Assembly: GCA_016177925.1 (NCBI GenBank)
Contig: JACOUH010000032.1
Location: 1-64,000, forward strand
DNA length: 64,000 nucleotides
Direction of reading: 5' to 3'
Source: Planctomycetota bacterium
GTDB taxonomy: Bacteria; Planctomycetota; Planctomycetia; Gemmatales; Gemmataceae
Shown here: piece after piece, positions 23,641-37,228 of the stretch
How positions within the stretch are numbered: position 1 is the first letter of the stretch
How the letters are laid out: each line of letters opens with the position of its first letter
Position numbers and translations under genes: made by a program
The notes under the pieces: generated by a model
Seen by the model: only the letters and a program-made list of their open reading frames with translations
What the model was told of the DNA's origin: nothing
Databases searched by the model: none

Positions 23641-25500
23641 TCATGACTCCTCTCCTTTCCGAGCCGGCTGCGGCGTCCTTGTCGGGGTTTGGCGTTGGCG
23701 ATAAAATGCTGCGCGTGGGCAGCCTCCCCGGACCGTCTGCGAATCGGCAGAAGAAACGGTCACGAGCAATGGTTGATACCCGGTAGTGTAACGGTAGCAC
23801 AAGAGATTTTGGCTCTCTATGTCCAGGTTCAAATCCTGGCCGGGTAGTTTTCTCTCAGCAAGTCTCAGGCGGTCGCAATCCGCCTCAACCCCTGCGATTT
23901 TCAGGGTTTGCGACGGCTCGCCCGTAGAAGCGCTGTCCCCCCTGTCCGTCTCAGCCGCTCTCACCGAATCGCATGGAACCTCACGGCGCAGGTAAGCGGG
24001 CGGTAAGCCAGATACCGACTCGGTAGGTGATTTATCCTCCGTTCCGGTCGCCGCCAGGGCCTGGGCCTCGTCTGCCGGGCCAGCCGGCAAGAGCGCCGGC
24101 AGACCGTCGACGGCGCCGGCGAGGTCGTACAGCCGGGCGTGCGTGTAGACGTTCATCGTCAGGCGGATGTCGGAGTGCCGGGCCAGCTCCTGCGCCAGCT
24201 TGGGGCTGACGCCGCTCCGCTCCAAGAGGGTGATGTAGGAGTGCCGCAGCGCGTGGAAGTCAGCCACGCGCCCCGCCTCATCGCGGTAGGGGATGCCGGC
24301 CGCGGCGAGGTCCTGACGGAGCATCTCGGCCGCGTCCTTGTGCCAGACACCGGGCCAGACGGGGCTATGGGGCGGCCGGCCGGCCAGGTAGTGGCGCAGG
24401 GCCAAGACCACGTCCGGCGGGAGAGGCTGCACCGACTTCTTGCGGTTCTTGGAGTAGGCCGCGGCGACGGCAGCGGTGGGCGTGTCGTCGTCGAGGGCAA
24501 ACGACGACGGGCAGAGGCTGGCCAGCTCGGAGGCGCGGTAGCCCGTCGTCATCGCCACGGCGTACAGCATCATCCGATCACGGCCGGCCAGCTCCAGGAA
24601 GGGAGCCAGGCTCCGGCCGGCGGCGCCCAGCAGCGTTTGCAGCTCCGGCTCCGGCAGCGCCCGGCGCTCGTGTCTTTTGTCTGTCTCGGCGTTGAGACGG
24701 GAGAGGGACACCAGCCGGTCGCGGTCCGTCCGTTCCTTCTCCACCAGCCAGCGGGAGAACCCTTTGAGGGCGGTCAGGTAGCCGTTGCTGGTCGAGATGC
24801 CGATGCCGCGCAGGACGTGCTCTTGCAGCGCCTCGACCGTCGCCCGCGGGTAGCGGCGGGCCGGGCCGTTGCCCCTGGCGGCCAGCCCCTCGCGCCGCAT
24901 CAGGCGGGCCAGTCGGCCGGGGCGAACGCCGCCCAGCGCGGCCACCAGTTCGCGCGGGGTGAACCACTCCTGACCGGGGGACAGCGCGGGCCGGGGCGGG
25001 TCGCGCCGCAACCGATGCAGGAACTCGGACACCTTCTCCGCCGCCAGGTCGAGAAGGAAGACGAACCGGCAACCGTCGAGAATGGCACGGATGCGAGCGC
25101 AGGTCTTGCTGACGTGCTCGGGGCAGTTGCCCTCCGCTTCCAGGTAACGGCGGTAGTCGTCCAGGTGGTCGGTCAGCGGTCGCTTGCGGTGCGCCTCGAA
25201 GGGGTCGGCGATGCCAGCCCGCCCCAGCTCGACCTTCTTGACCAGCTCGGCGAGCAGCTGCTGCGCGGCCGTCTTGTCGGTGGACAGCGGCTCGCGGCGG
25301 ACGGTGCCGTCCGCGTCGCGGTACTCGCCGTACCACTTGGCGGAGAACAGGCGGATGCGGTCGCCCTTCTTCGTCAAGGGCGCGGTCGCCGTGCGGCCGT
25401 CGTCATCGGTGAAGCGGGCGTGCGGCTTGCCCTTGATGGTGACGATTTGGGCCCCTTCGGGGAGGGGCCGGGTGTACGGCTGTCGGAACAGTCTTGCCAT
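23641..25500 (-). CDS. Tyrosine recombinase (integrase) of the tRNA-Gln element
   Basis: A 619-residue site-specific recombinase in its integrated form. Catalytic set: Arg322 in TTGYRASELASL, His416/Arg419 in FHALRHSY, His442 in ARHSDIRL, nucleophile Tyr452 in MNVYTH. A core-binding domain (about 100-260) is interrupted by a helix-turn-helix (about 178-232, FTPRELVAALGGVRPGRLAR). The reading frame crosses the attachment repeat (residues 552-565, LPGQDLNLDIESQN), runs antisense through tRNA-Gln and ends in chromosomal DNA. In the excised circle the same frame would instead continue into 37,101-36,916, giving a 626-residue protein. Three bases separate it from the upstream XRE gene. Confidence 0.92.
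   Translation of the reverse strand: MARLFRQPYTRPLPEGAQIVTIKGKPHARFTDDDGRTATAPLTKKGDRIRLFSAKWYGEYRDADGTVRREPLSTDKTAAQQLLAELVKKVELGRAGIADPFEAHRKRPLTDHLDDYRRYLEAEGNCPEHVSKTCARIRAILDGCRFVFLLDLAAEKVSEFLHRLRRDPPRPALSPGQEWFTPRELVAALGGVRPGRLARLMRREGLAARGNGPARRYPRATVEALQEHVLRGIGISTSNGYLTALKGFSRWLVEKERTDRDRLVSLSRLNAETDKRHERRALPEPELQTLLGAAGRSLAPFLELAGRDRMMLYAVAMTTGYRASELASLCPSSFALDDDTPTAAVAAAYSKNRKKSVQPLPPDVVLALRHYLAGRPPHSPVWPGVWHKDAAEMLRQDLAAAGIPYRDEAGRVADFHALRHSYITLLERSGVSPKLAQELARHSDIRLTMNVYTHARLYDLAGAVDGLPALLPAGPADEAQALAATGTEDKSPTESVSGLPPAYLRREVPCDSVRAAETDRGDSASTGEPSQTLKIAGVEADCDRLRLAERKLPGQDLNLDIESQNLLCYRYTTGYQPLLVTVSSADSQTVRGGCPRAAFYRQRQTPTRTPQPARKGEES
23777..23847 (+). tRNA. tRNA-Gln (anticodon UUG)
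   Basis: A 71-base cloverleaf: acceptor TACCCGG/CCGGGTA, D arm GTGT/GCAC, anticodon stem AGAGA/TCTCT around loop TTTTGGC (anticodon TTG), T arm CCAGG/CCTGG around TTCAAAT, discriminator G; CCA is not encoded. The segment from the end of the anticodon stem to the discriminator (23806-23847) is the duplicated attachment core, so the 3' half was supplied by the integrated element while the gene stays intact. Confidence 0.95.
23806..23847. repeat. Attachment site repeat, left (within tRNA-Gln)
   Basis: A 42-bp segment identical to 37102-37143; it starts ATTTTGGCTCTCTATGTCCA and ends CCGGGTAG. It covers the anticodon loop, variable region, T arm and acceptor 3' strand. Flanks differ on both sides (G before, TTTT after). 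Confidence 0.95.
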
Positions 25501-25503
25501 CGC

Positions 25504-25875
25504 TCACGCTCCCTTCTTTCCTGCCGTGCCCTTGTGCTTGCGTCCCTTGCCCCCGGCAGGCTTCTTCTGCCTCGCTGGGGTTCCGGCCGTCTTGCCCCCT
25601 CTCGTCGCCTCCTGCGCAGCGCCAGACACCTTGCCGTCTCCACCAGCGCCGGGCGGTTCCTCGAAGATGCGGCCGGCCAGCAAGTCCAGGCTGATGCCCA
25701 GCGCCTTCGCCAGCCGGTACGCGGCATCGAGACGGGGAAGTCGCAACCCTTGCTCCCAGTTCTTCAGCGAGGCGGTCGGGATGCTCGCCCGACGCGCCAG
25801 TTGCGACTGACTCAGCCCCGCGGACAGTCGCAAGTCCTGCAACCGCTCTCCCATTGCCGTTGTCCCTTCGCTCAT
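25504..25875 (-). CDS. XRE-family transcriptional regulator with basic tail
   Basis: A 123-residue protein. An N-terminal Cro/C1-type helix-turn-helix (MGERLQDLRLSAGLSQSQLA, SIPTASLKNWEQGLRLPR) is followed by LAKALGISLDLLAGRIF and a Lys/Gly-rich tail of about 45 residues. The ATG at 25875 is chosen for AAAGGGGG upstream; a start at 25893 is possible. Its stop is three bases before the integrase ATG, so the two are co-transcribed. It is likely the controller of the divergent promoter region 25915-26037, where two similar candidate operators sit between -35 and -10 boxes; this is inferred. Confidence 0.85.
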   Translation of the reverse strand: MSEGTTAMGERLQDLRLSAGLSQSQLARRASIPTASLKNWEQGLRLPRLDAAYRLAKALGISLDLLAGRIFEEPPGAGGDGKVSGAAQEATRGGKTAGTPARQKKPAGGKGRKHKGTAGKKGA

Positions 25876-25914
25876 GGTCAACCCCCTTTGCATGGATGAT
25901 GCCCATTCTCCCTC

Positions 25915-25943
25915 ATAGTACGCCAATCGGCGTTCGACGTCAA
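25915..25943 (-). promoter_or_regulatory. Promoter with embedded operator for the XRE-integrase unit
   Basis: On the minus strand, TTGACG (25943-25938), a 17-base spacer and TACTAT (25920-25915). The spacer holds ACGCCGATTGGCGT (25920-25933), a 5-bp inverted repeat around four bases. A closely similar sequence lies inside the opposing promoter at 26008-26037. Confidence 0.75.
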
Positions 25944-26007
25944 TAGATGTTCCAGGCGGATCGGGGGAAAAATTCCAGAAATTCCGAACAATCCATCACG
26001 AATTCAC

Positions 26008-26037
26008 TTGACGTCTAGACGTCGATTAGCGTATAAT
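26008..26037 (+). promoter_or_regulatory. Rightward promoter with embedded operators
   Basis: TTGACG (26008-26013), an 18-base spacer, TATAAT (26032-26037). Within it lie a perfect 14-bp palindrome GACGTCTAGACGTC (26010-26023) and ACGTCGATTAGCGT (26019-26032), which resembles the operator of the leftward promoter. It would drive the gene at 26,269 after a leader of about 220 bases. Confidence 0.75.
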
Positions 26038-26204
26038 GAGAGTGTAGTCGGAACGATGGCTCTTTGACAACTCGGCAAAATGCACGCAACCCCTCAGACC
26101 CGCGGCCGGTGAGTACCACCCGCCGCGGGCAAAGTCGGCCGGGCCAACGAGCGACCGGGGAGGGGCGGAAGAGAGAAGAGACAAGCGGCAAGTGGAAATG
26201 AGTT

Positions 26205-26236
26205 GGGCCGCGCGGTGTTACGAGCACCCGCGGCCC
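26205..26236 (+). promoter_or_regulatory. Strong hairpin in the leader of the SWIM-type gene
   Basis: GGGCCGCGCGGTG and CACCCGCGGCCC can pair (one bulged base) around a 7-base loop, 33 bases before the ATG at 26269. No T-run follows, so it may stabilise or attenuate the long leader rather than terminate it. Confidence 0.5.
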
Positions 26237-26268
26237 GGATCACCCCTGATGTAACCAGGAGATGACCA

Positions 26269-26604
26269 ATGTCCAACGCTACCCAGACCAAGGCCCCGCG
26301 TCAACGCAGGAAGCCTGCCCGGTTCCGCAAGATCGTCCGGAACCCTTCCGGCTTCGGCTACGACGTGCTTGTCATCCGCCAGCCGCGGCCGAAGTCGGCC
26401 GATCGGGTCGATTACTACACCGTCGAGGCGTTCCCCTCCCACATGGGCGAACGCGGCATCGAACTGACCAAGGGCGACGGCACCGTCTATCACGTCAACC
26501 TGGACGGCCAGGCGTCAACCTGCGACTGCAAGGGCTTCGAGTCGCACGGCCACTGCAAACACGTCGAGAGTCTGCTGGCGCTGCAACAGCGCGGCAAGCT
26601 GTAA
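26269..26604 (+). CDS. Small SWIM-type zinc-finger protein
   Basis: A 111-residue protein. Its C-terminal half contains CDCKGFESHGHCKHVESLLAL, the CxCxnCxH SWIM pattern (about residues 84-104), a zinc-binding module for nucleic acid or protein contacts. The N-terminus is basic (KAPRQRRKPARFRKIVRNPS). It is the first rightward gene of the element, behind the regulated promoter and a long leader. AGGAG lies upstream. I recall similar small proteins from planctomycete mobile DNA. The molecular role is unknown. Confidence 0.75.
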   Translation: MSNATQTKAPRQRRKPARFRKIVRNPSGFGYDVLVIRQPRPKSADRVDYYTVEAFPSHMGERGIELTKGDGTVYHVNLDGQASTCDCKGFESHGHCKHVESLLALQQRGKL

Positions 26605-26664
26605 CCGCCACCTTCGGGCCGGGGACGCCTACCCCGGCCCTTCGCTTCAGGAAGGGGGCGGACC

Positions 26665-26976
26665 ATGCTACTGAGACACGCAACACCACTTCGCAATCTC
26701 CCGAATATCCAACGGCACGGGCTGCTCTGCGCGAAGTCGCAAGGCCGGCTCAAGGCCGTGTGGCTCGCCACGAAGGAGAAGTCCAGTTGGGCGGCGATGC
26801 ACGTCGCTTGGCGACACGGGGCACGCATCGAAGCCGTTATCACCCTGGAAGTCGATGTCCCGCGCTCGTGGCTGCGGCGGTCCCGCAAGGGGCTCTGGTA
26901 CTGCACGCGGGACATACCGGCCGACCGCATCCGCCGGTTGTTCGGTTTCGTCGAGTTGGCACGGGCCGCGGGCTGA
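26665..26976 (+). CDS. Small protein with ADP-ribosyltransferase-like N-terminal pattern (function unknown)
   Basis: A 103-residue protein starting MLLRHATPLRNLPNIQRHGLL. The spacing of HxTP, NLPxI and HGLL resembles the NAD-binding start of DarT/Tpt1/PARP-like folds (for example YHxTxxxNLPSIxxxGL). The remainder (VWLATKEKSSWAAMHVAWRH, VITLEVDVPRSWLRR, LWYCTRDIPADRI) gives a compact mixed fold with a Glu in TLEVDV that could serve as the catalytic acid. No antitoxin-like macrodomain gene is beside it. Likely a real gene; the function is a hypothesis. Confidence 0.6.
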   Translation: MLLRHATPLRNLPNIQRHGLLCAKSQGRLKAVWLATKEKSSWAAMHVAWRHGARIEAVITLEVDVPRSWLRRSRKGLWYCTRDIPADRIRRLFGFVELARAAG

Positions 26977-27077
26977 CGCAAACGCACGGATGGACAGACG
27001 GGGCAAGGAAGCCGATGAGAGAACAGGGAGCGGGCGCTGTTGCCCGCCCCCCGACAACAGGGGAAGGGAGACAGACC

Positions 27078-27302
27078 ATGAAGTACGTTCAAGCGATCAT
27101 CGACCTGTTCGGCGGGCTGGCAAGCTTCCGGCATATCCGCCTGGAGTGCGCGGGCTTCATGCCGCTGGCCGTCGAGGCGATCGGACCGGGGCCGCGGGGC
27201 CTTACTTCTCGGCAGGATCGGCGAGCCAGCAATCTTCAAGAAGGATCTTTTGACCCATCCACACTTCAGGATCTTTCTTCATTCCGACAACCCGGCCATT
27301 GA
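27078..27302 (+). pseudogene. Truncated small conserved protein (DUF6908-like N-terminus)
   Basis: AAGGGAG precedes an ATG that opens MKYVQAIIDLFGGLASFRHI, RLECAGFMPLAVEAIGPGPR. The start resembles a planctomycete family (DUF6908, name from memory) whose members continue with a conserved SVAHYxxQNGDLMRDPEM region. Here the match stops at about residue 41 and the frame runs antisense over the next gene. It looks like the 5' remnant of a gene cut at about 27,200, where the OB-fold cargo begins. The missing 3' part was not found downstream. Confidence 0.55.
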
Positions 27303-27912
27303 TGGAAATCATGGAGTCTTTCTTGATGCCGGCGATTTCCGAACGCCGGTTTGAATCGAATCGACACACGATATTGGCGGGGTATCCTTCGTTGTACCAG
27401 CGCTTTTCTTGTGCTGTCATGCGGTCGTAAACATCCTGTGTAACAAGGACACCTGCAACAACACCAAAGCCGATCGAATCACTATTGATTTCACTGATCC
27501 TGCCATTGATAACTACTCGTTGGCCCTTGTAGTCCAGATCAGCCTTGGCCGCGTTTGCTCGGTATTGATTCCAAAGCTCGATCGAGTTGACCCACTTCGC
27601 TGAGCGATCCTCCCTGTCCTGTTCGGCCTTTGTCTTCTTCGCCGGCCCGCGCTGCATGGCGGCGACGATCAGGATTAGCAGCAGAGTGAGCGCGACCACG
27701 CCGCCGACCACGAACAGCGCTCCGCGCCGAACCGGCGGAGGCGGCGGGGCATACTCGGCAGGACTGTCGTCGGGAACGACCGGCGCCAGGGTCTGGCCTG
27801 TCGAGGGAACGAAAGCGGTGTCGCAGCGGGCGCAGGTGATGGACGGCAAGGACAGCTCGTTCGCGGGCAGACGGATCTCCCGGCCGCAACCCGGACAGAT
27901 GACGGTCGGCAT
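27202..27912 (-). CDS. Zinc-ribbon membrane protein with OB-fold (tRNA_anti-like) domain
   Basis: A 236-residue protein. Residues 6-33 hold a four-cysteine ribbon (CPGCGREIRL, CARCDTAF), then a Pro-rich linker, a membrane helix (ALFVVGGVVALTLLLILIVAA), and a C-terminal OB-fold: NAAKADLDYKGQRVVINGRI, IVCRFDSNRRSEIAGIKKDS, ISINGRVVGMKKD, ILLEDCWL. This matches the tRNA_anti-like domain, whose ligand is not established. It is the second gene of a leftward pair (3-base gap) with another anchored OB-fold protein. Base composition looks less GC-rich than neighbouring element genes, suggesting separate acquisition. Function unknown; a cargo or defence role is only speculation. Confidence 0.7.
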   Translation of the reverse strand: MPTVICPGCGREIRLPANELSLPSITCARCDTAFVPSTGQTLAPVVPDDSPAEYAPPPPPVRRGALFVVGGVVALTLLLILIVAAMQRGPAKKTKAEQDREDRSAKWVNSIELWNQYRANAAKADLDYKGQRVVINGRISEINSDSIGFGVVAGVLVTQDVYDRMTAQEKRWYNEGYPANIVCRFDSNRRSEIAGIKKDSMISINGRVVGMKKDPEVWMGQKILLEDCWLADPAEK

Positions 27913-27915
27913 GGT

Positions 27916-28446
27916 TCATCGCCCCCTCACCACGCGACAGCCGCTCAAGACGACGTCCTGGGGCTTGCCTTCACAGAAGCCACAGAGAACTACAGACTGA
28001 CCCGGTTTCAGTTCAGGGGAACCAGATTCGAGATAGCATAAGATGCCAAAAGCGTTCACAGAGGCGGCAGGAATACGCGCAATGTATTCCTCGAACGTTT
28101 CGCTGGCGGGAAGATCGCCAGCGGGAGCCGAAAGGACAAAGGTAATAAAACGACCTCGTTTGTCTTTTCCTTCGCTTCGGAGACGGCCCGTGAGTTCGAC
28201 CGTGCAAGCGCCATACTTGTTGGCGGCTTGCTTGGGGGAACGTAAGAAGTCTTCGTACAGCTTCTGCACGGTGACGAAATGTTCCGCTCGGGGCAGCGGG
28301 CGTTTTTCGTTCTTGCCGAGAGGGGCCTTGTCCACTTTGGCTTTCGGCTGGCGCCGAGCCTCCACTTCGCGAAGGAGGAAGGCTCCGCCGATGATGATGC
28401 CTGCCGTCAGGACGGCCCCGACCGCGAGAGAAAAGAGAAACTTCAT
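27916..28446 (-). CDS. Membrane-anchored OB-fold (tRNA_anti-like) protein
   Basis: A 176-residue protein: an N-terminal membrane helix (FLFSLAVGAVLTAGIIIGGAFLL), a basic linker, then an OB-fold with TVQKLYEDFLRSPKQAANKY, CTVELTGRLRSEGKDKRG, GILCYLESGSPELKPGQSVV, LCGFCEGKPQDVVLSGCRVV. It is the same domain type as the following gene and probably acts with it on the same face of the membrane. The ribosome-binding site GAGG lies inside a perfect 8-bp hairpin (28453-28478), so translation may be switchable. No enzyme motif is seen. Confidence 0.68.
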   Translation of the reverse strand: MKFLFSLAVGAVLTAGIIIGGAFLLREVEARRQPKAKVDKAPLGKNEKRPLPRAEHFVTVQKLYEDFLRSPKQAANKYGACTVELTGRLRSEGKDKRGRFITFVLSAPAGDLPASETFEEYIARIPAASVNAFGILCYLESGSPELKPGQSVVLCGFCEGKPQDVVLSGCRVVRGR

Positions 28447-28452
28447 GGGACA

Positions 28453-28478
28453 CCTCAGACGTCTTTGATGGTCTGAGG
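28453..28478 (-). promoter_or_regulatory. Hairpin enclosing the ribosome-binding site of the OB-fold pair
   Basis: In the minus-strand mRNA, CCTCAGAC pairs with GTCTGAGG around a 10-base loop. The 3' arm contains the GAGG Shine-Dalgarno of the gene starting at 28446, so the structure would mask ribosome binding. Confidence 0.55.
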
Positions 28479-28604
28479 CTAACGCGCCATCAGAGAGGAA
28501 GCTAGAAGAAAACAGTCGGTGTCGGCCCTGCTCGATGTGCGAGACGACGGACCTGTTGCGGTTTTGGCTTGCCTGTCAAGGCCCGCCCCGCCCTCCGCGC
28601 GGCG

Positions 28605-28646
28605 GAAGGGGCCGGGGGTGGCGTTCATCATCCCCCCGGCCCCTTC
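28605..28646 (-). terminator. GC-rich hairpin downstream of the HTH gene
   Basis: Arms GAAGGGGCCGGGGG (28605-28618) and its perfect complement (28633-28646) around a 14-base loop. It lies about 100 bases after the leftward gene ending at 28750, with no T-tract, so termination is likely but unproven. The rest of the 28447-28749 gap holds two weak AT-rich hairpins near 28,670-28,705 and the promoter region of the OB-fold pair. Confidence 0.55.
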
Positions 28647-28749
28647 TGTTCCCTCGCCGTGCGCCACTTGATTTCTTTTTCAAGTTTACTGATTTTTGTC
28701 AGTCCGTTTTTCAAGTTGGGATCGGCCGCGCCGGTGCGAGCGCGGGGGC

Positions 28750-29406
28750 TCATTGCCGCTTCGTCCCGGCTTGTGTGCCAAGCAACCGGATTACCTCCGG
28801 CTCGTGCGCCAGCAACTCCGCCCGCAAGGCGGCGGTGTCGGCGCTCTGGGGGTCGCGGGCGCAGAGGACCAGCTTGCCGTTCCGAACCGACAGGGCGCAA
28901 CCGAGGGCCTTGCAGCGCGCGAGCAGCTCGGCGGCCACGGAGGGCGGCGGGATGCGCCCGCCCGCCGCTTGCACCAGCGCCCGCAGTTCGACCACGTGTG
29001 CCCGGAGGGCCTCCACCAGCTCGTCAGGCCGATCTTTCGCCGCGTGGAACACCACCCCGCCATCCGCCGCGCTCGCCAGGACGTAGCCGCGCCCGCGGCA
29101 ATACTCCAGCAGCTCGGCGGCGGTCATGGCGTCCCAGGCCCGGCCGGGCGCGGCAACCGCCGCGCGTGCCCGGGCCAGCACGCGCCGCACTTGAGTTGCG
29201 GACCAGCGCTGGCCGGGGTATTCCGCACGAGTCTTGACCCCGCGGCGGTCCAGTTCGGCGGCGATCTGCCGGAGGGACCGCCCCGCACGGTGGAGTTGTA
29301 ACACAAGCTCAAGGAGCGGGGCGTAGAACTGGCGCGCAGCCTCGCGGTGGACGGGGGCGGACACCGCCCCGCCCTTCTTGTGAACGCCAGCAGGGAACCC
29401 GGGCAT
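28750..29406 (-). CDS. Recombinase-type HTH protein with TubC_N-like C-terminus
   Basis: A 218-residue protein. Residues about 25-80 (LLELVLQLHRAGRSLRQIAA, ELDRRGVKT, WSATQVRRVLAR) form the helix-turn-helix found behind the catalytic domain of large serine recombinases, but no catalytic domain is present. The C-terminus (AAELLARCKALGCALSVRNG, AALRAELLAHEPEVIRLL) resembles the TubC N-terminal docking module seen in mobile-element replication proteins. The ATG at 29406 is preferred over GTG 29415 because GAGG lies upstream. Probably DNA-binding. Its partner could be the next gene upstream, 18 bases away. Confidence 0.6.
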   Translation of the reverse strand: MPGFPAGVHKKGGAVSAPVHREAARQFYAPLLELVLQLHRAGRSLRQIAAELDRRGVKTRAEYPGQRWSATQVRRVLARARAAVAAPGRAWDAMTAAELLEYCRGRGYVLASAADGGVVFHAAKDRPDELVEALRAHVVELRALVQAAGGRIPPPSVAAELLARCKALGCALSVRNGKLVLCARDPQSADTAALRAELLAHEPEVIRLLGTQAGTKRQ

Positions 29407-29424
29407 GGTCAGCACCTCAAAAAG

Positions 29425-29781
29425 TCAGCTTGTGGTACAGCCGGACTGAGCAGCAGGGGCACCGTCTCCAGCGACGACTTCCTCGACAACACGCTGGCGG
29501 ACGTCGACGTCCGCCCTGAGCGTCGTGGCACTCAACCGGGGATGCTCGTAAGGGGCTGCGTCCTTGGCGATGGCCGCGGCCTTGTCCCAGCGGCGAGCCC
29601 TGACATGGATCTGCATGGCCTTGAGCATGACCTGGAGTGGCGTCAGGCCCTCCTGCGCCAGAGGGGACAGCACCTCGTCAACGGCAATCCTCCCTCGCTC
29701 GGCACGCGCCTTGCGAGCCCCCCGTGTGTCCTTGCTGCCCTTGGGCCGGCCAGCCCCCCTGCGTTTTCCGCCGCGCGGCAT
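29425..29781 (-). CDS. Small phage-type protein (terminase small subunit-like)
   Basis: A 118-residue basic protein opening MPRGGKRRGAGRPKGSKDTR, a GAGRPKG start very common in phage DNA-binding proteins. LTPLQVMLKAMQIHVRARRW and AAAIAKDAAPYEHPRLSATT match the PLxYML...RRxxMAxAAAPYxHPR pattern of small terminase-like proteins. No large terminase, portal or capsid gene is in the element, so it may help a satellite use a helper phage or act as a plain DNA-binding protein; both are speculation. Confidence 0.6.
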   Translation of the reverse strand: MPRGGKRRGAGRPKGSKDTRGARKARAERGRIAVDEVLSPLAQEGLTPLQVMLKAMQIHVRARRWDKAAAIAKDAAPYEHPRLSATTLRADVDVRQRVVEEVVAGDGAPAAQSGCTTS

Positions 29782-29850
29782 GTTGATTCTCGTTGATTTT
29801 CGTCAGCTTGTGATACAGCCGGACTGATCCGCCACCGTCCGGCGGTTCGT

Positions 29851-30330
29851 TCAAGGAACGCTGCTTGTTGCGGCGAGGGCCGCACGAACGGCCTTGGCGT
29901 CTTCCCGGGTCGCGCAGACGATCTCACGGACGGGTTCCTCGGGAGCATCCGGCGGCAACTGGCCGCGCAACACCAAGAGCTTGTCGACGGCAACACCAAG
30001 AGCCACGGCCAATTGCGGCAGGGTGGCCGCATCGATCTTATCGGGCATGGCGTCAACGAGCTGGTGAGCGATGGCTTCCAACTTCGCGTCGAGGGCCTGC
30101 ACCGCTTGCGGCAGAATCTCCGCCACACGCTCCGCCCTTTTTTTAGGTGCCGGATTGCTGCCCGTTTTTTCCGGCACCTGTCCGGCAGCCTGCTTTTGCT
30201 CCCGAATCCAGTCCTGAAGGGTCTGGCGCTTCACGCCACACTCGCGCACTGTCTTGGCAACGTTGCCCCCGTTGGCGACGAGCGCCGCCAAACAGGCGGC
30301 CCGTTCTTCATCCGCATGGTGTTTTGCCAC
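29851..30330 (-). CDS. HTH protein, phage/transposase-like
   Basis: A 159-residue protein. The N-terminal part (ACLAALVANGGNVAKTVREC, GVKRQTLQDWIREQ) is a helix-turn-helix like those of insertion-element orfA or small terminases. The helical C-terminus has no recognised motif (ILPQAVQALDAKLEAIAHQL). The GTG at 30330 has an AGGAG upstream; the frame stays open to 30603, where a TTG would add 91 residues of uncertain reality. It is divergent from the XRE gene at 30,734. Confidence 0.5.
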   Translation of the reverse strand: MAKHHADEERAACLAALVANGGNVAKTVRECGVKRQTLQDWIREQKQAAGQVPEKTGSNPAPKKRAERVAEILPQAVQALDAKLEAIAHQLVDAMPDKIDAATLPQLAVALGVAVDKLLVLRGQLPPDAPEEPVREIVCATREDAKAVRAALAATSSVP

Positions 30331-30663
30331 GGTGACACTCTCCTCTTGCTCGTCCGCGCGGTGTGCGCATGCCCCCATTGTACTCGGGCGTCTGTGTTCA
30401 GCCGTGGCGGCGCCCAGCAGCCCCGCCAGAGCACGCGCGGCCGGGGACAGGGCGGGAACACCCTTGCGGCGACGATCGCGCGTCCTGGCGCTCTTGGGTG
30501 CGTCCTCGAAAGTGAGGACCGTTCCCCAATCGCCGGCCGTGCCCCGCCGGAAGGACACCTCGACGCGGACGGCAAGGCCGCGGTCGGAATCGTCCAGCAG
30601 CAAGCCTGGTCGCGGTCTCAGCGCCGGGCCGCGACTGGTTTCCCCATCCCGGGTTTATACCAC

Positions 30664-30692
30664 TTGACATAATACCAAGGGATGCTATTATG
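30664..30692 (+). promoter_or_regulatory. Promoter with overlapping inverted repeat for the second XRE gene
   Basis: TTGACA (30664-30669), a 16-base spacer, TATTAT (30686-30691). A perfect inverted repeat CATAATA/TATTATG (30668-30674 and 30686-30692) spans both boxes, the expected layout for a repressor site. Confidence 0.7.
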
Positions 30693-30733
30693 CCAACGGG
30701 CACCAAGAGCAGCACCCAGAAAGGGGTGAAGCG

Positions 30734-30997
30734 ATGGAGAAGAACGAAGAGGTACTCCCGCTCGTTGACGAATTGCAGCAGGCGATCAAGCAGAGCGGAC
30801 TCTCTCTCAATCAACTCGGTAAGCAGGCCGGGGTCAGCCAAGCCCAACTGTCCCGCTTCGTGCGCGGAGAGCGCACGCTCACTCTGCCCGCCGTCGCCAA
30901 ATTGTGCGTCTTCCTGGGGTTGCGGTTGGCGAAGGCCAACCGCCTGGACTCCGAAACAGGAATCACCTACTCCCAACCGCCTCCCGGGGCGAAGTGA
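30734..30997 (+). CDS. Small XRE-family regulator
   Basis: An 87-residue Cro/C1-type protein: LVDELQQAIKQSGLSLNQLG, KQAGVSQAQLSRFVRGERTL, VAKLCVFLGLRLAK. AAAGG lies upstream. It heads a rightward three-gene unit (next start 8 bases on) ending in a clear terminator. The inverted repeat over its own promoter suggests autorepression. It is distinct from the integrase-linked XRE protein. Confidence 0.85.
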   Translation: MEKNEEVLPLVDELQQAIKQSGLSLNQLGKQAGVSQAQLSRFVRGERTLTLPAVAKLCVFLGLRLAKANRLDSETGITYSQPPPGAK

Positions 30998-31005
30998 GGT
31001 ACAGC

Positions 31006-31449
31006 ATGTCCGAGCAGCAAAACGCGCCGCTGGCCCTGGCGCTGATCGTGGCCGACCACATCACCCGGGACCTCGGCACGGGGAAACTCTCCGTCCACGG
31101 CATCTTCAACGCCATCGGCGCGTTGAGCTTCCCCTGGACGCACCCGTCCATAATGGTCTACGGCGCCCTCACGGACGGCCGCCTCGGCAAGACGCCGATC
31201 ATGCTCCGCCTGGTGGACGCTGAGGAGGAGCGCCCGCCCGTGGTCGAGGCGCCTGGGGAAGTCGACTTTCCCGACCCCTTCGCCATCGTGGAATTCGTCC
31301 TCGCCCTGAACGGTGTCGTCTTCCCAGAAGCTGGGGAGTACCGCCTGCAGCTGCACGGGGCCGGAACCCCTTTGCTCGAACGACGTATACTGGTAGTCCC
31401 TGTCCCGACACCCCAAGATCCACCCGACAGCCCTCAAACAGGAGAATGA
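31006..31449 (+). CDS. DUF6941-like conserved protein
   Basis: A 147-residue protein: LALALIVADHITRDLGTGKL, SVHGIFNAIGALSFPWTHPS, MVYGALTDGRLGKTPIMLRL, FPEAGEYRLQLHGAG, LLERRILVVPV. I recall this as a small beta-rich family (DUF6941, name from memory) frequent in planctomycete genomes and of unknown function; the fold suggests a C2/Ig-like sandwich. GAGGT lies six bases before the ATG. It is co-transcribed with the XRE gene before it and a 59-residue gene after it. Confidence 0.7.
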   Translation: MSEQQNAPLALALIVADHITRDLGTGKLSVHGIFNAIGALSFPWTHPSIMVYGALTDGRLGKTPIMLRLVDAEEERPPVVEAPGEVDFPDPFAIVEFVLALNGVVFPEAGEYRLQLHGAGTPLLERRILVVPVPTPQDPPDSPQTGE

Positions 31450-31452
31450 GCC

Positions 31453-31632
31453 ATGTCCGCAAACGAGACACCCGAGCCGACCGTCATTGTCACCCCAAGC
31501 CAGCTGCCCACGGGGCGGGTATCCATCACCCTGGCCAACCTGCCGGTTGGCGTACTCAAGAAGTACGCCAGCCCCAAACCCTTGCGCAGGCCCCAGCCCC
31601 TACGGAAGCCGTCATCGGAGGAGAAGGGATAA
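31453..31632 (+). CDS. 59-residue hypothetical protein
   Basis: Starts MSANETPEPTVIVTPSQL four bases after the stop of the DUF6941-like gene, with AGGAG eight bases upstream. The second half is rich in Lys, Pro and Arg (LKKYASPKPLRRPQPLRKPS). It is too short to classify. Position, ribosome-binding site and the terminator 37 bases after its stop support it as the last gene of the unit. Confidence 0.6.
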   Translation: MSANETPEPTVIVTPSQLPTGRVSITLANLPVGVLKKYASPKPLRRPQPLRKPSSEEKG

Positions 31633-31668
31633 GCGGCTTGTGGGGGTTCCGGCCCTAATATCCGCTGA

Positions 31669-31700
31669 GGCCCGGGAGGGGACAGCCTCCTGGGCCTTTT
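31669..31700 (+). terminator. Rho-independent terminator
   Basis: GGCCCGGGAGG (31669-31679) pairs with CCTCCTGGGCC (31686-31696), one G-T pair, 6-base loop, followed by TTTT. It ends the XRE/DUF6941-like unit and faces the leftward HNH gene. Confidence 0.85.
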
Positions 31701-31749
31701 GTCGTTTCTGGTCACAAACCCCGTCCGCAAGGCCCTTGCCTTCCGCCGC

Positions 31750-32154
31750 TCACCGTCGACGATACCGAACGCCCCCAGTCAAGAGTCGTCGTGCCACATC
31801 CTCCCCAGCGGCCGGGTGCAAGCGCTGGAGCAGCGCCAGGAGCAAAGCGAACTCGCCAGCGTCCAGCTTGCCCTTCAGCCGGTTGCACCTGTCGCAGCAG
31901 GCGCGGAGGTTGTCGAGGGCATACGCGCCGCCGCGTGCTGTCGGCTTCGCATGGTCGAAGCGCAGCAAGGCGAGCGTCAGGGGCAACCGGCAGTAGCCGT
32001 AGACCAGCGCGGCGCGGGCCAGCTTCAGCAGCTCGTCAAGGTCGTAGCTCAGCGTGACGCCATCGGCCCGGGCGCGGCGGCGCTGGTCGTTGAAGATGCG
32101 GCGGCAGCGCTTCCGGAGCGCGGTTTCGGCGGGCAGCAGCACGGGCTTGCGCAT
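31750..32154 (-). CDS. HNH endonuclease
   Basis: A 134-residue nuclease: FDHAKPTARGGAYALDNLRA, CCDRCNRLKGKLDAGEF, the Asp-His, Asn and CxxC set of the zinc-containing HNH fold. The N-terminal part is basic and helical. The ATG at 32154 is chosen for AAGGGAG upstream. It lies 11 bases after a small gene and downstream of the primase-helicase, so it may be a packaging- or homing-type nuclease of the element. The target is unknown. Confidence 0.85.
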   Translation of the reverse strand: MRKPVLLPAETALRKRCRRIFNDQRRRARADGVTLSYDLDELLKLARAALVYGYCRLPLTLALLRFDHAKPTARGGAYALDNLRACCDRCNRLKGKLDAGEFALLLALLQRLHPAAGEDVARRLLTGGVRYRRR

Positions 32155-32165
32155 GGTCGCTCCCT

Positions 32166-32387
32166 TCACGCCGCGGGCCGGGGACGGTTCGGGTCGACGC
32201 CGGCGGGCAACACGCACACGTCGCGCATCTTGCCGCGGGCCGGGATGTCGAACACTTTGACACGGGCCTCCGCCTCGGTGTCGCCAGCGGCGACGGGCTC
32301 CCAGCGCCGCGACGGCGGTTCGCGCGTCCAGGCGACGAACCGCCCTGCTGGGGGCGTTGCCAGCCGGCCCTCATTCGGTCGGGTCAT
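32166..32387 (-). CDS. Small conserved hypothetical protein
   Basis: A 73-residue protein: RFVAWTREPPSRRWEPVAAG, DTEAEARVKVFDI, MRDVCVLPAGVDPNRP. The style suggests a compact soluble protein, and I recall similar companions of HNH or replication genes in planctomycete elements. No motif assigns a function. It sits between the primase-helicase and the HNH gene in the same direction; AGAGGG lies upstream. Confidence 0.5.
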   Translation of the reverse strand: MTRPNEGRLATPPAGRFVAWTREPPSRRWEPVAAGDTEAEARVKVFDIPARGKMRDVCVLPAGVDPNRPRPAA

Positions 32388-32429
32388 GGGTTGCCCTCTT
32401 CTTCCGTTCTGTTCCGAACCTTCCTCAGT

Positions 32430-32793
32430 GGACGGTTTGGACAGTGTGGACGGTCGTATCAGGAGGGGAGGGCGGTCAGAACGGACAACGACTATCGTCG
32501 GCTTCCCCCTCGTGTGCATTTCTTCTTCCGCTGGCGCCCCCTCCCCCTGTAGCCGACCGTCCGAACCGTCCGCAGACCGGGTTTTCCGCGGCGTTTGCGG
32601 ACGGTTCCCGCGGACGGTTGTGCGCACCGCGGCCGTTACCGTCCGCACAACCGTCCGCACAACCGTCCGCCGTTTCCGCGGATTCGCCACTTCCTGCGGA
32701 CGGTGCGGACGGTTGCAGGGAGGGGGAGAGGGTGTCCGCGCGCAAGTGCAACACTTCACGGTCGCGGACACCGGCCAGCGTCCGGCGGACGGT
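32430..32793. repeat. Array of twelve 7-mers ACCGTCC/GGACGGT (iteron-like)
   Basis: GGACGGT starts at 32430, 32448, 32599, 32612, 32698, 32707 and 32787, and the complement ACCGTCC at 32556, 32565, 32638, 32650 and 32662. The copies at 32638-32668 have an exact 12-base period (ACCGTCCGCACA). Copies come mostly in same-strand pairs or triplets that alternate direction. Chance would give well under one copy in this span. Most lie inside the 3' end of the primase-helicase gene and encode its low-complexity tail (ADGCADGCADGN); two lie just beyond its stop. A replication-origin role is inferred. Confidence 0.8.
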
Positions 32794-35709
32794 GTTCCGC
32801 TGCCGGGCATCCTCCCAACTTGCCAACAGGCCGCGTTCCTTCAGCCGTTTCCAGAGGGTCCGCGGCGAAACGGGTAGCCCCCCGCCCTGGTCGCGTGCCA
32901 ACTCTTGCGCGGACGCATGACTCGCTTGCGGCTCCAGGTACAAGTCGGCGCCGTCCACCCAGCCGACGCGCTCGCCCTGGGGTTGCCATTCGTCCCGGGC
33001 GTGCTCGCCGGTGCCCATCGTGCGCAACCTCCATCCCCACGCTTCGGGCCTGTCCAGCGCCCCGGGCTCTGCCCCGTCCGGGCCGGCAACGTGCGCCCGC
33101 CCCGAAGCCAGGGCCGCGGCCAGCAGGCGCAGGAAGAGGGCTGTGGGTTCGGCAGCCTGGACGTGTTCCGCCTGCGCCGCGGCCGCCTCCCGAAGCGCCT
33201 CCCAACCGCGGCGAGCCAGGGCGCCCCGCTCCGCGTCCGTGAGGGCGCCGGCTGCGCAAGCGAAGTCGAAGAAGAGCTTCAGCCCCAGCGTCACGTCGGC
33301 CACAATGCCCGGCGTGCGTGCCGATCCGCTGCCGGTCTGGGCGCGATCGCGGAGCGCTGTCCGCTCCCCGGGCAGCCGGCCGCACAGCTCGCCGTACTGC
33401 GGTGCCAGCCAACGGACGAAACCGGCCAGCGCCGCCGCATACTGGCCGGCAGCGGCGGCGTGCTGGTGGGGCGTCAGGCCGGTCAGCAGCACGTCGTCCG
33501 GCGACACTTCCAGCACGAGCATGCGGCCGCGGAGCGACTGGCCGGGCGGGGTATCCTCGCCGGTCGAGAGGATCAGCCCGCGCGGCGGCCGCGACGGACG
33601 CAAGCTCCCGTCAGCGCGCATCCGTTGCCGGCCAGCCCGGTTGCCCTGCGCTCGCAAGAGCCGGTCGGCGTCGCGCTCCAGCCGCTGCCGGTCCCCGACC
33701 GCGCCCGCGGGAGCCCAGTCGTCCACCACAAGAAGCGCGTCCTTGGCGGCGAACGCCAGCCCTTCCAGTGCGTTGGCCGTCGAGGACCAACCGGCGGGCA
33801 GGTGCCGCGCGTCCAGGCCGGCGCCGTAGTGCTGCTGAGCGAGGGCCGCCAGCTCGCTTTTGCCGGCGCTGTGTGGGCCGGCCAGGAACAACGACAGGTC
33901 GATGGCGCCCGGGGCCTCGCCCAACGCCGCGCGGTAGACGGCCCCCACCAGCGGGAAGACGAGGCGGTCGGGTGCCAGACCGTCCAGAAGGGCCAGACTC
34001 GCCTGCAAGTAGTGCCAGCTACCGGCGATCTCGCGCCAGCCCGTATGGGCGTAGACGGTCCGCCGCGCCCGATCCTCCGAGAGCAGTTCGAGGGCGGCGC
34101 GGAGATGGTCGCGCGTGCCCTGCCCGGCGTAGACGACGGCCTCGCCGTGCCAGGCGGTCGTAACCCAGCCCAGCCCGGCGAAGTCGGCCGCGGGTACTTG
34201 GACAGCGGGCAACTCCCGGCCGTCCGCCAAGGCGCCGGCCAGCGCGAAGAAGGCGGTTTGCTCGGCGCCGTCGTCGCGCACGACTACCTCGGTAATCCGC
34301 GCGGTGAAGTTGCAGAGCGGGATAGTAGCCAATCCGCCGTCGTGCGTGGATACCTCGCGCACGATGCGCCCGTTGTCGATGCAGTAGCCGGCTTCGTTCA
34401 GCAGCACGGGCGGCCGCTCCTGCGCCTGTTCGCGCAGGAAGGGCTTCAAGGCGGCGTCGAGGTCGCGCAGGGACACCAGCCCTTTGAGGACGGCGCGGCG
34501 AGCGGCAAAGCCAGCAGGATTCGCGGTCTTCAGACGGGCCAGCGCTTCGAGCAGCGGCTTGTCGTTGAATAGGGCGGCAGCGCCTCCGGCGGCCAGCACG
34601 TCGGGCAGACGGTCCAGCGGACTCGGCTCTTGCGGCAGCTCACCAGCTGTCGCCGCGGCGACGGCCTCGCCGATCGCGACCCGCGCCGCCTCGCCGGTCA
34701 AGACCGCCGGCGCCTTGCCGGCAGCAAGCAGGTCGTCAATCCCCTTGCCGTCGGACAGCTCCCAGCGCTCCAGCTCGACGGCCAGACCAGCGGCGCCCGC
34801 GGCCTCGGCACAGGCCGACAGCGCGCGGGCCACGGTCGGCTTGTCGAGGGCGTCGGCGTCGAGGGCGAGCCGCACGGTCTGGCAACCCAACTCGTGCAGC
34901 ACGTCGAGGGCCGGGCGCCAGGCCAGCCCGGCGGCGCCGATCGTGGGCAGTCCGGACAGTGCGAAAGCGATGTCCGCCTTGAGGGCTCCTTCAGTCAGCC
35001 GGCAGGTAGGGCAGGGGCCGGCCACGCCGAAGGGGACGTGAACCGGGGCGCCGGGGCCGGGGCCTCCGTGTTTCACACTCGACAGGTAGGAGTATTTGCC
35101 CTCGGCGCCCTTGGCGTCGTCCCGCCGCGAGAGCAAAGCAACGATGCGGCCGGCCAGGTCGCGGACCGGCACCAGCAGCCCCGCAGCGCCGGCGATGGTG
35201 AGATAGGGCCGGCCGCCCTCGCCCTGCTTGGTGACGAAGCCAGGAACCGACAAGAGGTTGTCGCCCGGCTGACCTGCCTCGCCGGCGATGTGCGCGAACA
35301 CGTCGCGGGCCACTGCAGCGCGGCCGCGGACGGGCAGGGTGCGGTAGCTGCGGCGGTCCATCTCATCATCGCTCAGGCCGCGCTGGCGAAGTGCCTCGCG
35401 GTGCGCCTTGGAGAGCGCCAGCCGCGCCAAGAGGGCGGAATAGGCGCGGTGCAGCAAGTCGGGGGCGGCCCGTGGGGCTTCCGGGCCGGGCGGCCGCGGG
35501 GGCGGCGGTGGGGCGGGCCGGTCGGCGCCGGCGAGGCGGTGCAGGTGGTAGGGCACGCCGTCCCGATCCGTCTTGGAGCGCCAACATCCTTCTTCGACGC
35601 GCATGCACTTGGCGAGGGCGCCGTCGGCGGAGAGGCTGCACCAGTCCGCATGTTTGCAGATAGGGCAAGGGGCAGACTTGGAGACGCGCTGCCAACGATG
35701 ACTTGCCAT
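32476..35709 (-). CDS. Primase-helicase (zinc finger, TOPRIM, P-loop ATPase)
   Basis: A 1077-residue replication protein of the element. Residues 15-35 hold four cysteines (CPICKHADWC onward) like a primase zinc finger. About 235-330 resembles TOPRIM (RLTEGALKADIAFALSG with the Glu, LALDADALDK with the Asp pair), as in DUF3854-type proteins. About 430-800 is a DUF927-like/superfamily 3 helicase: Walker A GPHSAGKSEL at 611, Walker B DALLVVDDWAP at about 657. The last 70 residues are low-complexity and encoded by the 7-mer array. AAGGGA precedes the ATG. It is expected to start autonomous replication of the excised circle. Confidence 0.8.
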   Translation of the reverse strand: MASHRWQRVSKSAPCPICKHADWCSLSADGALAKCMRVEEGCWRSKTDRDGVPYHLHRLAGADRPAPPPPPRPPGPEAPRAAPDLLHRAYSALLARLALSKAHREALRQRGLSDDEMDRRSYRTLPVRGRAAVARDVFAHIAGEAGQPGDNLLSVPGFVTKQGEGGRPYLTIAGAAGLLVPVRDLAGRIVALLSRRDDAKGAEGKYSYLSSVKHGGPGPGAPVHVPFGVAGPCPTCRLTEGALKADIAFALSGLPTIGAAGLAWRPALDVLHELGCQTVRLALDADALDKPTVARALSACAEAAGAAGLAVELERWELSDGKGIDDLLAAGKAPAVLTGEAARVAIGEAVAAATAGELPQEPSPLDRLPDVLAAGGAAALFNDKPLLEALARLKTANPAGFAARRAVLKGLVSLRDLDAALKPFLREQAQERPPVLLNEAGYCIDNGRIVREVSTHDGGLATIPLCNFTARITEVVVRDDGAEQTAFFALAGALADGRELPAVQVPAADFAGLGWVTTAWHGEAVVYAGQGTRDHLRAALELLSEDRARRTVYAHTGWREIAGSWHYLQASLALLDGLAPDRLVFPLVGAVYRAALGEAPGAIDLSLFLAGPHSAGKSELAALAQQHYGAGLDARHLPAGWSSTANALEGLAFAAKDALLVVDDWAPAGAVGDRQRLERDADRLLRAQGNRAGRQRMRADGSLRPSRPPRGLILSTGEDTPPGQSLRGRMLVLEVSPDDVLLTGLTPHQHAAAAGQYAAALAGFVRWLAPQYGELCGRLPGERTALRDRAQTGSGSARTPGIVADVTLGLKLFFDFACAAGALTDAERGALARRGWEALREAAAAQAEHVQAAEPTALFLRLLAAALASGRAHVAGPDGAEPGALDRPEAWGWRLRTMGTGEHARDEWQPQGERVGWVDGADLYLEPQASHASAQELARDQGGGLPVSPRTLWKRLKERGLLASWEDARQRNTVRRTLAGVRDREVLHLRADTLSPSLQPSAPSAGSGESAETADGCADGCADGNGRGAHNRPREPSANAAENPVCGRFGRSATGGGGASGRRNAHEGEADDSRCPF

Positions 35710-35785
35710 ACAATTCCCTTGTGAGCGCTTTCGGTTCGATCAGACCGGCCCGCGGGAAGCAACCGCGGGCCGGTCGCGTTTCGTG

Positions 35786-36103
35786 TCAGCGCCGCGACGC
35801 CTCCAGCGCCTGCCACGCCTTCCGATCCGGACAACCTGCCTGCACCCAGCGCTTCAGTTCGGCGACGCGCCAGCGCGTGCTGTGCCCCAGCCGGACGGGG
35901 GAGGGTGTCTTGCCGGCTGCGACGAGACGCCACCAGGTCGCCTCGCTGACGCCGCACAGCCGGGCGGCCTCCGGGGCGGGGACCAGCAGGGGCTCGGGGG
36001 CCGGGGCCGGGACCGGCGGCGGGCCGGTAGCCGTAGCTGGCGGATCGGCTGGGACCGGGGCGGCGCCGTTCGCGGTGATAGGCGGGCGGTCAGTCGGCGG
36101 CAT
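35786..36103 (-). CDS. Excisionase-like HTH protein (AlpA/MerR type)
   Basis: A 105-residue protein. The first 45 residues are Pro/Ala-rich; then comes a winged helix LLVPAPEAARLCGVSEATWW, RLVAAGKTPSPVRLGHSTRW, RVAELKRWVQAGCP, the pattern of phage excisionases and AlpA-type regulators. It starts inside the end of the preceding small gene (14-base overlap) and lies upstream of the primase-helicase. A role as the recombination directionality factor for the integrase is likely but unproven. Confidence 0.78.
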   Translation of the reverse strand: MPPTDRPPITANGAAPVPADPPATATGPPPVPAPAPEPLLVPAPEAARLCGVSEATWWRLVAAGKTPSPVRLGHSTRWRVAELKRWVQAGCPDRKAWQALEASRR

Positions 36104-36293
36104 GGTGGGCCTCGCAGTCGGCGGCGGGGGTGTTGTTCCGTTGCCGGGCGCGGGCGGCGCGCAGCAGCACCAACAGCGCCCGGCGCTCGCGGTCCAGTTC
36201 GCGCAGCCGGGCCGTCAGCCGGGCGGCGTCTAGCGACTCCAGCAGGGCTTGCGGGTCGAAAGGTAACGGGGGTGCGGGGGGTGCGGGTGCCAT
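36090..36293 (-). CDS. Small helical protein
   Basis: A 67-residue protein: Pro-rich start, then DPQALLESLDAARLTARLRE, LDRERRALLVLLRAARARQR, an amphipathic helix-rich core. Its 3' end overlaps the excisionase-like gene by 14 bases, a sign of translational coupling. I recall similar short open frames just before excisionase genes in planctomycete elements. Function unknown. Confidence 0.55.
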   Translation of the reverse strand: MAPAPPAPPLPFDPQALLESLDAARLTARLRELDRERRALLVLLRAARARQRNNTPAADCEAHHAAD

Positions 36294-36335
36294 ACCGCAA
36301 GTCTGACAGGTGCGACGCGGGCTAGCGGGAAATGA

Positions 36336-36357
36336 GTGGGCAATTAGTGGGCAATTA
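36336..36357. repeat. Two tandem copies of an 11-bp word before the excisionase unit
   Basis: GTGGGCAATTA is repeated directly at 36336 and 36347 and followed by GTG. It lies in the 73-base gap between the winged-helix gene and the excisionase/primase unit, where a regulator site is expected. Confidence 0.6.
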
Positions 36358-36366
36358 GTGTGCGCG

Positions 36367-36780
36367 CTACTCGGCGGGAAGTGAGGCGAACAACCGCAGT
36401 CCCTCGGCGGTGACGGTGTGGCCTTTCCGCTTACCGCGCGGCTGGTGTGCCAAACCCGCGCTGCGCAAATAGGAGAGGCGCGGGCCGATGGTGCGCCGCG
36501 AGAACCCGGTTGTCGTTTCCAGGTCGTACTGGCTCACGGTTCGCGGATGCGACGCGGCGAGTGCGCGAAGGAGAGCAACGTCTTCGCGGGTGAGGGCGAG
36601 GTCGCCCGTTGCCGGGGCGGCTGGTGGCGTTGACGGGGAGGGCGCCGGCGTATCCTTCTGCTGGACGCCGCCCGCGGCGTCGCGGGCCAGCCACCGATGC
36701 AACCGATCGTACTTCTGCTTCGCCAACTCGCGCTTCCGGGTCGAGGCGGGGGGGTCGAAAAACGGCGGAGCGCCGGCCAT
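36367..36780 (-). CDS. Winged-helix DNA-binding protein
   Basis: A 137-residue protein. A basic N-terminal half (STRKRELAKQKYDRLHRWLA) and a Pro-rich linker precede a winged helix: LTREDVALLRALAASHPRTV, SQYDLETTTGFSRRTIGPRL, SYLRSAGLAHQPRGKRKGHT. The ATG at 36780 has AAGGA upstream; the frame extends further without support. It is the first gene of the leftward unit leading to the primase-helicase and probably its regulator. Confidence 0.7.
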   Translation of the reverse strand: MAGAPPFFDPPASTRKRELAKQKYDRLHRWLARDAAGGVQQKDTPAPSPSTPPAAPATGDLALTREDVALLRALAASHPRTVSQYDLETTTGFSRRTIGPRLSYLRSAGLAHQPRGKRKGHTVTAEGLRLFASLPAE

Positions 36781-36915
36781 GAGACGGGTTCCTTTCGAGA
36801 ACGGCCGCGGCCGCCCCTGCAGGTTCTCGAACGGCAAGAGCGGACGCGCGGCCAAAGGACACGTTCAGCTTATCCGGCGCTTGAGGCGCGGTCCAACCCG
36901 GCCAGCTGCCGGGCC

Positions 36916-37101
36916 TCACCCGCCCGCCGCCTCGACGAGAGCGACGATGCCGCGGCGGATCACTTCCGATAGACTTTCCCAGGCGGCACAGACGCGGGCA
37001 AGATCGGGGTCGGCAGGGGCGCAGGTAAGCGGAGCGGTAAGCGGGTCAGTGCGTTCGCCGGAAGTGTTGTCGGGCAAGGACTTGCGTTCTGCACCGAAGG
37101 C
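36916..37101 (-). other. Detached native C-terminal tail of the integrase frame
   Basis: 61 codons plus a TGA in exactly the frame that continues the integrase across the attachment repeat. The encoded tail starts AFGAERKSLPDNTSGERTDP and ends DLARVCAAWESLSEVIRRGI followed by VALVEAAGG, which I recall as the usual end of related planctomycete integrases. In the integrated state no integrase start lies upstream, so it is silent; in the excised circle it joins residue 565 of the integrase. Confidence 0.88.
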
Positions 37102-37143
37102 ATTTTGGCTCTCTATGTCCAGGTTCAAATCCTGGCCGGGTAG
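37102..37143. repeat. Attachment site repeat, right (3' tRNA fragment)
   Basis: Identical over 42 bp to 23806-23847. Here it lacks the 5' half of the tRNA, so it is the displaced original 3' end and marks the element boundary. Flanks: C before, CTGACAT after. Confidence 0.95.
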
Positions 37144-37228
37144 CTGACATAAAGGCCACACTGTGGGTCCGAGATTCGGGCCCCGTGAGGCGGCGAGCCA
37201 CCAGGGACCTCCGTGGCGTCCCAGCAAC

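Follow-up and report, generated by a model that had tools for sequence, protein, structure and literature searches.

What becomes of an integrase whose attachment site lies within its own reading frame? This question is raised by an integrase gene in the window, the whole stretch of 64,000 nucleotides that was analyzed (Table 1). An exact 42-bp direct repeat occurs twice with a spacing of 13,296 bp, and on the minus strand the first copy forms integrase codons 552–565 (LPGQDLNLDIESQN). The offset of this core from the int start codon is 1653 nt, and thus it is in phase. This copy also forms the 3′ portion of an intact tRNA-Gln(TTG), and when the flanks were joined in silico to give the empty site, the tRNA-Gln was again intact. 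A 25-bp part of the core, searched with up to 3 mismatches, is present at the two core places only. The integrated form of the enzyme has 619 residues, of which the final 54 are chromosome-encoded and read antisense through the tRNA-Gln. Joining of the element ends in silico gives a predicted circle form of 626 residues, which ends with the 61-residue tail encoded at 36919–37101. The first-pass annotation had described the core as 14 whole codons of the integrase frame, with the same minus-strand phase at both copies and two proteins with these lengths and ends, and all of its coordinates and both translations agree with ours.

Table 1. Positions in the window of the integrase gene, the attachment cores, and associated features.
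Feature	Position	Strand	Basis
Tyrosine integrase gene, integrated form (619 aa)	23641–25500	−	ORF; PF00589; PHROG integrase families
Catalytic domain, residues 303–455, untouched by the swap	24136–24594	−	Pfam match
tRNA-Gln(TTG), attB target, restored by the element	23777–23847	+	ARAGORN; empty site also intact
att core at integrase junction, int codons 552–565	23806–23847		Exact 42-bp repeat, in phase
att core, opposite element end	37102–37143		Exact 42-bp repeat, in phase
Chromosome-encoded end of integrated form (54 aa + stop), antisense through tRNA 5′ half	23641–23805	−	Translation
Orphan 61-aa tail + stop, circle-form C-terminus	36916–37101	−	Translation
Conserved tail motif ADPDLARVCAAWESLSEVIRRGIVALVEAAG	36922–37014	−	Profile A1; family-wide conservation
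Candidate P-arm sites GGTAAGC (23991–23997, 24002–24008)	23991–24008		Inside int codons
Candidate P′-arm sites GGTAAGC (37024–37030, 37036–37042)	37024–37042		Inside tail codons
HTH_3 (Cro/CI-type) regulator, immediately upstream of int	25504–25926	−	Pfam, PHROG
AlpA/HTH_17 excisionase-like protein, candidate Xis	35786–36103	−	HTH_17, E 1.1e-7; phrog_66, E 2e-10

The integrase has the catalytic domain of the lambda-type tyrosine integrases (PF00589, Phage_integrase, E = 1.6e-15). This domain stops about 95 residues ahead of the core, so it is intact after the swap. It might be proposed on these grounds that the swap, though real, plays no part in regulation, with attP located in the gene by compaction, both forms of the enzyme equally good, and the tail dispensable. 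The relatives of the element provide evidence on this point.

Integrase homologues are present in 93 of the 95 genomes of the host's family, and many of them run antisense into an adjoining tRNA, for Gln, Lys, Asp, Met, His, Arg, Phe, Cys, or Ser. Integrases and tails in stitched genome regions were paired if they shared a core of 30 bp or more, giving 19 pairs, 8.8–51 kb apart, at many different tRNAs; locus L055, with an arm-like shared stretch of 21 bp, and L053, with a doubtful one of 26 bp, were left out of this main count. The phase is equal in 18 of the 19 pairs (binomial P = 3e-8 at an expectation of 1/3), and since the in-phase arrangement recurs in this way in other elements, it is not due to chance. 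From the P arm to the tail, 18 of the 19 predicted circle junctions are open in the frame of the tail and none of the 38 other frames is, although the core by itself is open in 21 of these 38. The phase is kept as well in three more elements, whose cores are interrupted. The isolate Tautonia sociabilis, from the Isosphaeraceae, has its integrase and tail on separate contigs, with the tail in phase and the 48-bp core identical in both. The sole pair out of phase, L118 (G011:C1), has an offset of 1 nt between core and tail, which is the result of decay, a sequencing error, or a real exception. A relative in the attP form was not found in viral contigs, searched with integrase and tail queries, or in a plasmid and a phage collection. 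These comparisons argue strongly that integration exchanges the C-terminus of the integrase, and that the free and inserted enzymes differ, both here and in many relatives among the Planctomycetota. The family-wide scale is an addition to the single locus described before.

Which of the two C-termini is the normal end of the integrase? The conserved end is the attR-type tail. One motif, DPDLaRVvaAWptLPepiRRAvlALvga, recurs in the tails at the far core, whether the tRNA of the element is for Gln, Asp, Met, or Arg. The earlier impression that the tail now at attR looks like the normal end of related integrases is strongly supported by the conservation of this motif, its being in phase at the attR of unrelated insertions, and its natural fusion to integrases at tandem junctions. 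The tail of the window matches the profile with E = 2.9e-18, although its own sequence is part of that profile. The profile matches 92 of the 95 genomes of the host's family (E ≤ 1) and 72 of 392 phylum genomes (E ≤ 0.001), other planctomycete families included. Seven matches were found in T. sociabilis, and five non-planctomycete genomes, a small control, gave one weak partial match at E = 0.04. Matches in dihydrolipoamide dehydrogenases (L178, L223, L224) were rejected as false positives. In a single-sequence AlphaFold model, residues 32–60 of the window tail form one helix (mean pLDDT 78). A Pfam search and a PDB sequence search gave no credible relative of the tail.

Of about 100 tail frames that were read, almost every one is a short orphan. 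An antisense tRNA T-arm can be recognized 60–190 nt upstream of the tail in 64 cases, and about one-third of the tails are without one. The tail frame is open through this T-arm in 62 of the 64, with all three tRNA phases used. The tail could be a small gene in its own right next to attR, with a product acting in trans when the element is integrated, and the integrated tail frame does stay open, beginning at a TTG upstream of the core. However, most tails have no start of their own; an in-frame ATG within 90 nt before the motif is present in only 15 of 96, and an SD-like sequence precedes an ATG or GTG in 3 of 96. The continuity of the frame with the antisense tRNA and the existence of fused integrase–core–tail frames also speak against a separate gene, which we consider hardly probable at all.

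The tails are conserved as protein. The entropy at codon positions 1, 2, and 3 of 93 distinct tails is 0.95, 0.65, and 1.52, the pN/pS for pairs at least 80% identical is 0.21, and W and LP are nearly invariant. By these measures, the tails are under purifying selection at the protein level although they are stranded when the element is integrated. Selection on a tail that is stranded in the integrated state suggests that the circle-encoded enzyme is the form that counts. It is also unexpected for a dispensable tail, and the proposal that the swap has no regulatory role thus seems unlikely to us, even with the catalytic domain intact. The distances among integrases and among tails are weakly correlated (Mantel r = 0.22, 216 of 5000 permutations).

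In all 19 pairs, the core is flanked by a 7–9-bp word that is the same on either side. The copies in int codons lie about 160 and 148 bp ahead of the core, and those in tail codons about 58 and 70 bp beyond it. In the window, this word has six plus-strand copies in 64 kb, among them the four listed in Table 1. Of the 19 pairs, 18 have exact 7-bp tandem repeats with a spacing of 10–12 bp in the integrase part, 16 have them in the tail part, and 15 in both, the other four lacking one in one arm by this strict test. The word varies among elements (GGAGCAGCA, GGCGTAGTG, CACATGTAC, CTTGTACC, and others), but it matches within all 19 pairs vs 14% between pairs, and arm words could be used to classify elements. 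The observed repeat score was reached by 0 of 200 codon shuffles in 18 of the 19 pairs, and by 8 of 200 in the remaining pair. At the sequence level, repeats that flank the core in every pair have the layout of the arm-type sites of lambda-type integrases, and we regard them as candidates for such sites. With this layout, a complete attP of about 300 bp would be written inside the integrase gene. These candidate sites in coding sequence are likewise an addition to the first-pass annotation. Some tails contain GAESGAL, GAAPGAA, GRSAGRS, or GCTAGCT peptides, which are echoes of the arm repeats and differ by element group.

Is the tail then conserved as DNA, as a part of the P′ arm of attP, the protein not being needed? 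The position of the P′-arm repeats in the tail coding region, 58–70 bp from the core, is consistent with this idea. However, the repeats are mostly upstream of the conserved motif and are specific to the element, and the motif is kept as protein, with the third codon positions the most variable. The idea, already weakened by these observations, is very unlikely.

Both forms of the enzyme appear side by side, as close homologues, in one tandem array (G400:C270). Two related integrases in this array have 73 bp around the core in common. The inner integrase (27692–28862) runs on into a tail, its N-terminal side being cut by an in-frame stop, and the outer one (35396–37148) runs on into tRNA-Ser. 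The arm word behind the inner core agrees with that of the outer element and not the inner, as expected if the junction joins the integrase of one element to the tail of another. Fused integrase–core–tail frames are also found in G052:C66, G046:C122, and G008:C257. A terminal-overlap test for circularity found none in the first two, so these contigs are not proven circles. On another contig (L113, G088:C251), the tail motif occurs three times within 2 kb (at 692, 1782, and 2601), always in one orientation and with a T-arm upstream of the first only; it looks as if elements had integrated serially at this one site and decayed. At a contig end, L135 (G024:C9) has a tail in frame that closes a 462-residue frame without a tRNA fragment, and this element perhaps targets a protein-coding gene.

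Attachment sites within the element's own integrase gene have been described in very few elements (PMC4701971). The direct precedents, which the earlier annotation had missed, are the integrase of Myxococcus phage Mx8, streptococcal ICEs in rumA, and the archaeal suicidal integrases. The Mx8 tyrosine integrase gene, like the present one, spans attP, and integration replaces its C-terminus, 112 residues being swapped for 13 according to PMC4701971. In the window also, the attP core lies in frame inside int and the C-terminus is changed by integration. Mx8 and SSV are cited by the authors of Islander as integrases reaching across attP (PMC4383910). The Mx8 int gene encodes a tRNA-antisense-like peptide, STGLEPVLLGS, and has an 11-bp-period repeat upstream of the gene end. 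This repeat (L243, AF396866, 6369–6390, TGTGACAGCGG), upstream of the tRNA-like stretch, resembles the P-arm repeats here. Mx8 Int and the window integrase have no significant sequence similarity, with a BLASTP E of 0.27 and no phmmer match, and Mx8 has no tail motif match of note. Thus, the window integrase would work like that of Mx8 without being a member of its group by sequence. Unlike Mx8, it has a family that extends across the phylum, whose members target many tRNAs and have a single conserved tail.

The sources on Mx8 differ. The integrated, modified integrase is less active in PMC4701971, whereas in the review PMC6070905, the swap altered its specificity and did not inactivate it. 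The review's account would fit two forms of equal worth, but it would also fit an integrated form that is specialized for excision, with a specificity gained or changed rather than lost. An Xis-like protein is encoded near attR, matching phrog_66, a family of excisionase and transcriptional regulator, which is in favor of such an enzyme. However, the chromosomal sequence that supplies the new tail is arbitrary and changes from one insertion to the next, and thus this tail cannot carry an evolved function. Specialization for excision is, in our judgment, decidedly doubtful.

As a whole, the evidence is probably best explained by a tail that is needed in the circle, an attP within int, and an integrated enzyme that is weaker or altered. 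A 13.3-kb mobile element in tRNA-Gln would carry a complete attP, with P arm, core, and P′ arm, in the 3′ part of the gene of its lambda-type tyrosine integrase, between the catalytic domain and the conserved helical tail. In the circle, the predicted enzyme is full length, 626 residues with the tail. Crossover with the tRNA at the core would separate the catalytic part from the tail. The catalytic part, at one junction, would gain an arbitrary end of antisense-tRNA and chromosomal residues, and the tail would be stranded at the other junction. The core, its phase, the arm repeats, the conservation of the tail, the tandem junctions, and the recurrence in the family are seen directly in the sequences. 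We infer that the circle-encoded enzyme requires the tail to be fully active, most likely in integration; in that case, the enzyme would lose a working part through the reaction that it catalyzes. The integrated enzyme would be weaker or altered and the integrated state stabilized, until the int gene is rebuilt by excision or help comes in trans from a full-length integrase that is co-resident. That activity, stability, or directionality differs with the state, as proposed before, has only indirect support, from the purifying selection on the tail and the published Mx8 data. It is conceivable, with the balance slightly against it, that Planctomycetota elements evolved a state switch, in which the conserved tail licenses the circle-encoded integrase for integration and the reaction removes the tail, making insertion self-limiting. 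Superinfecting or tandem copies would then regenerate full-length, even chimeric, integrases able to remobilize residents.

In the archaeal suicidal integrases (SSV, pTN3, pT26-2), the att site is translated within the integrase, as it is here, integration breaks the gene, and target switching has to preserve the frame (PMC8371274). The archaeal gene is split so that Int(C) holds the catalytic domain, whereas in the window the N-terminal part keeps the intact catalytic domain on the int side and the tail alone is lost. Self-disrupting tyrosine recombinases are stated in the same review to be exclusively archaeal. In the streptococcal ICEs in rumA, attR is within the integrase gene and the excised element encodes another C-terminus (PMC4701971), but these have a serine integrase and a protein-coding target, without a tRNA. 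The present case is notable for its scale, its conserved tail, and its candidate arm sites, which have to be spelled in codons. Here a bacterial phylum has the arrangement commonly, nature having replicated it dozens of times at different tRNAs, and the directionality of integration becomes a directly testable question. The reading frame constrains the switching of tRNA targets. The annotated C-termini of integrases in genomes should be viewed with caution, as they are often host-encoded by-products of integration.

Two other proteins of the window may be noted. One (28750–29415, minus strand) has an odd pairing of a serine-recombinase 'Recombinase' domain match with a TubC_N docking-like match. 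The other (32476–35709, minus strand), of 1077 residues, has DUF3854 and DUF927 matches near the cut-off and is likely a primase/helicase-like replication protein of the element.
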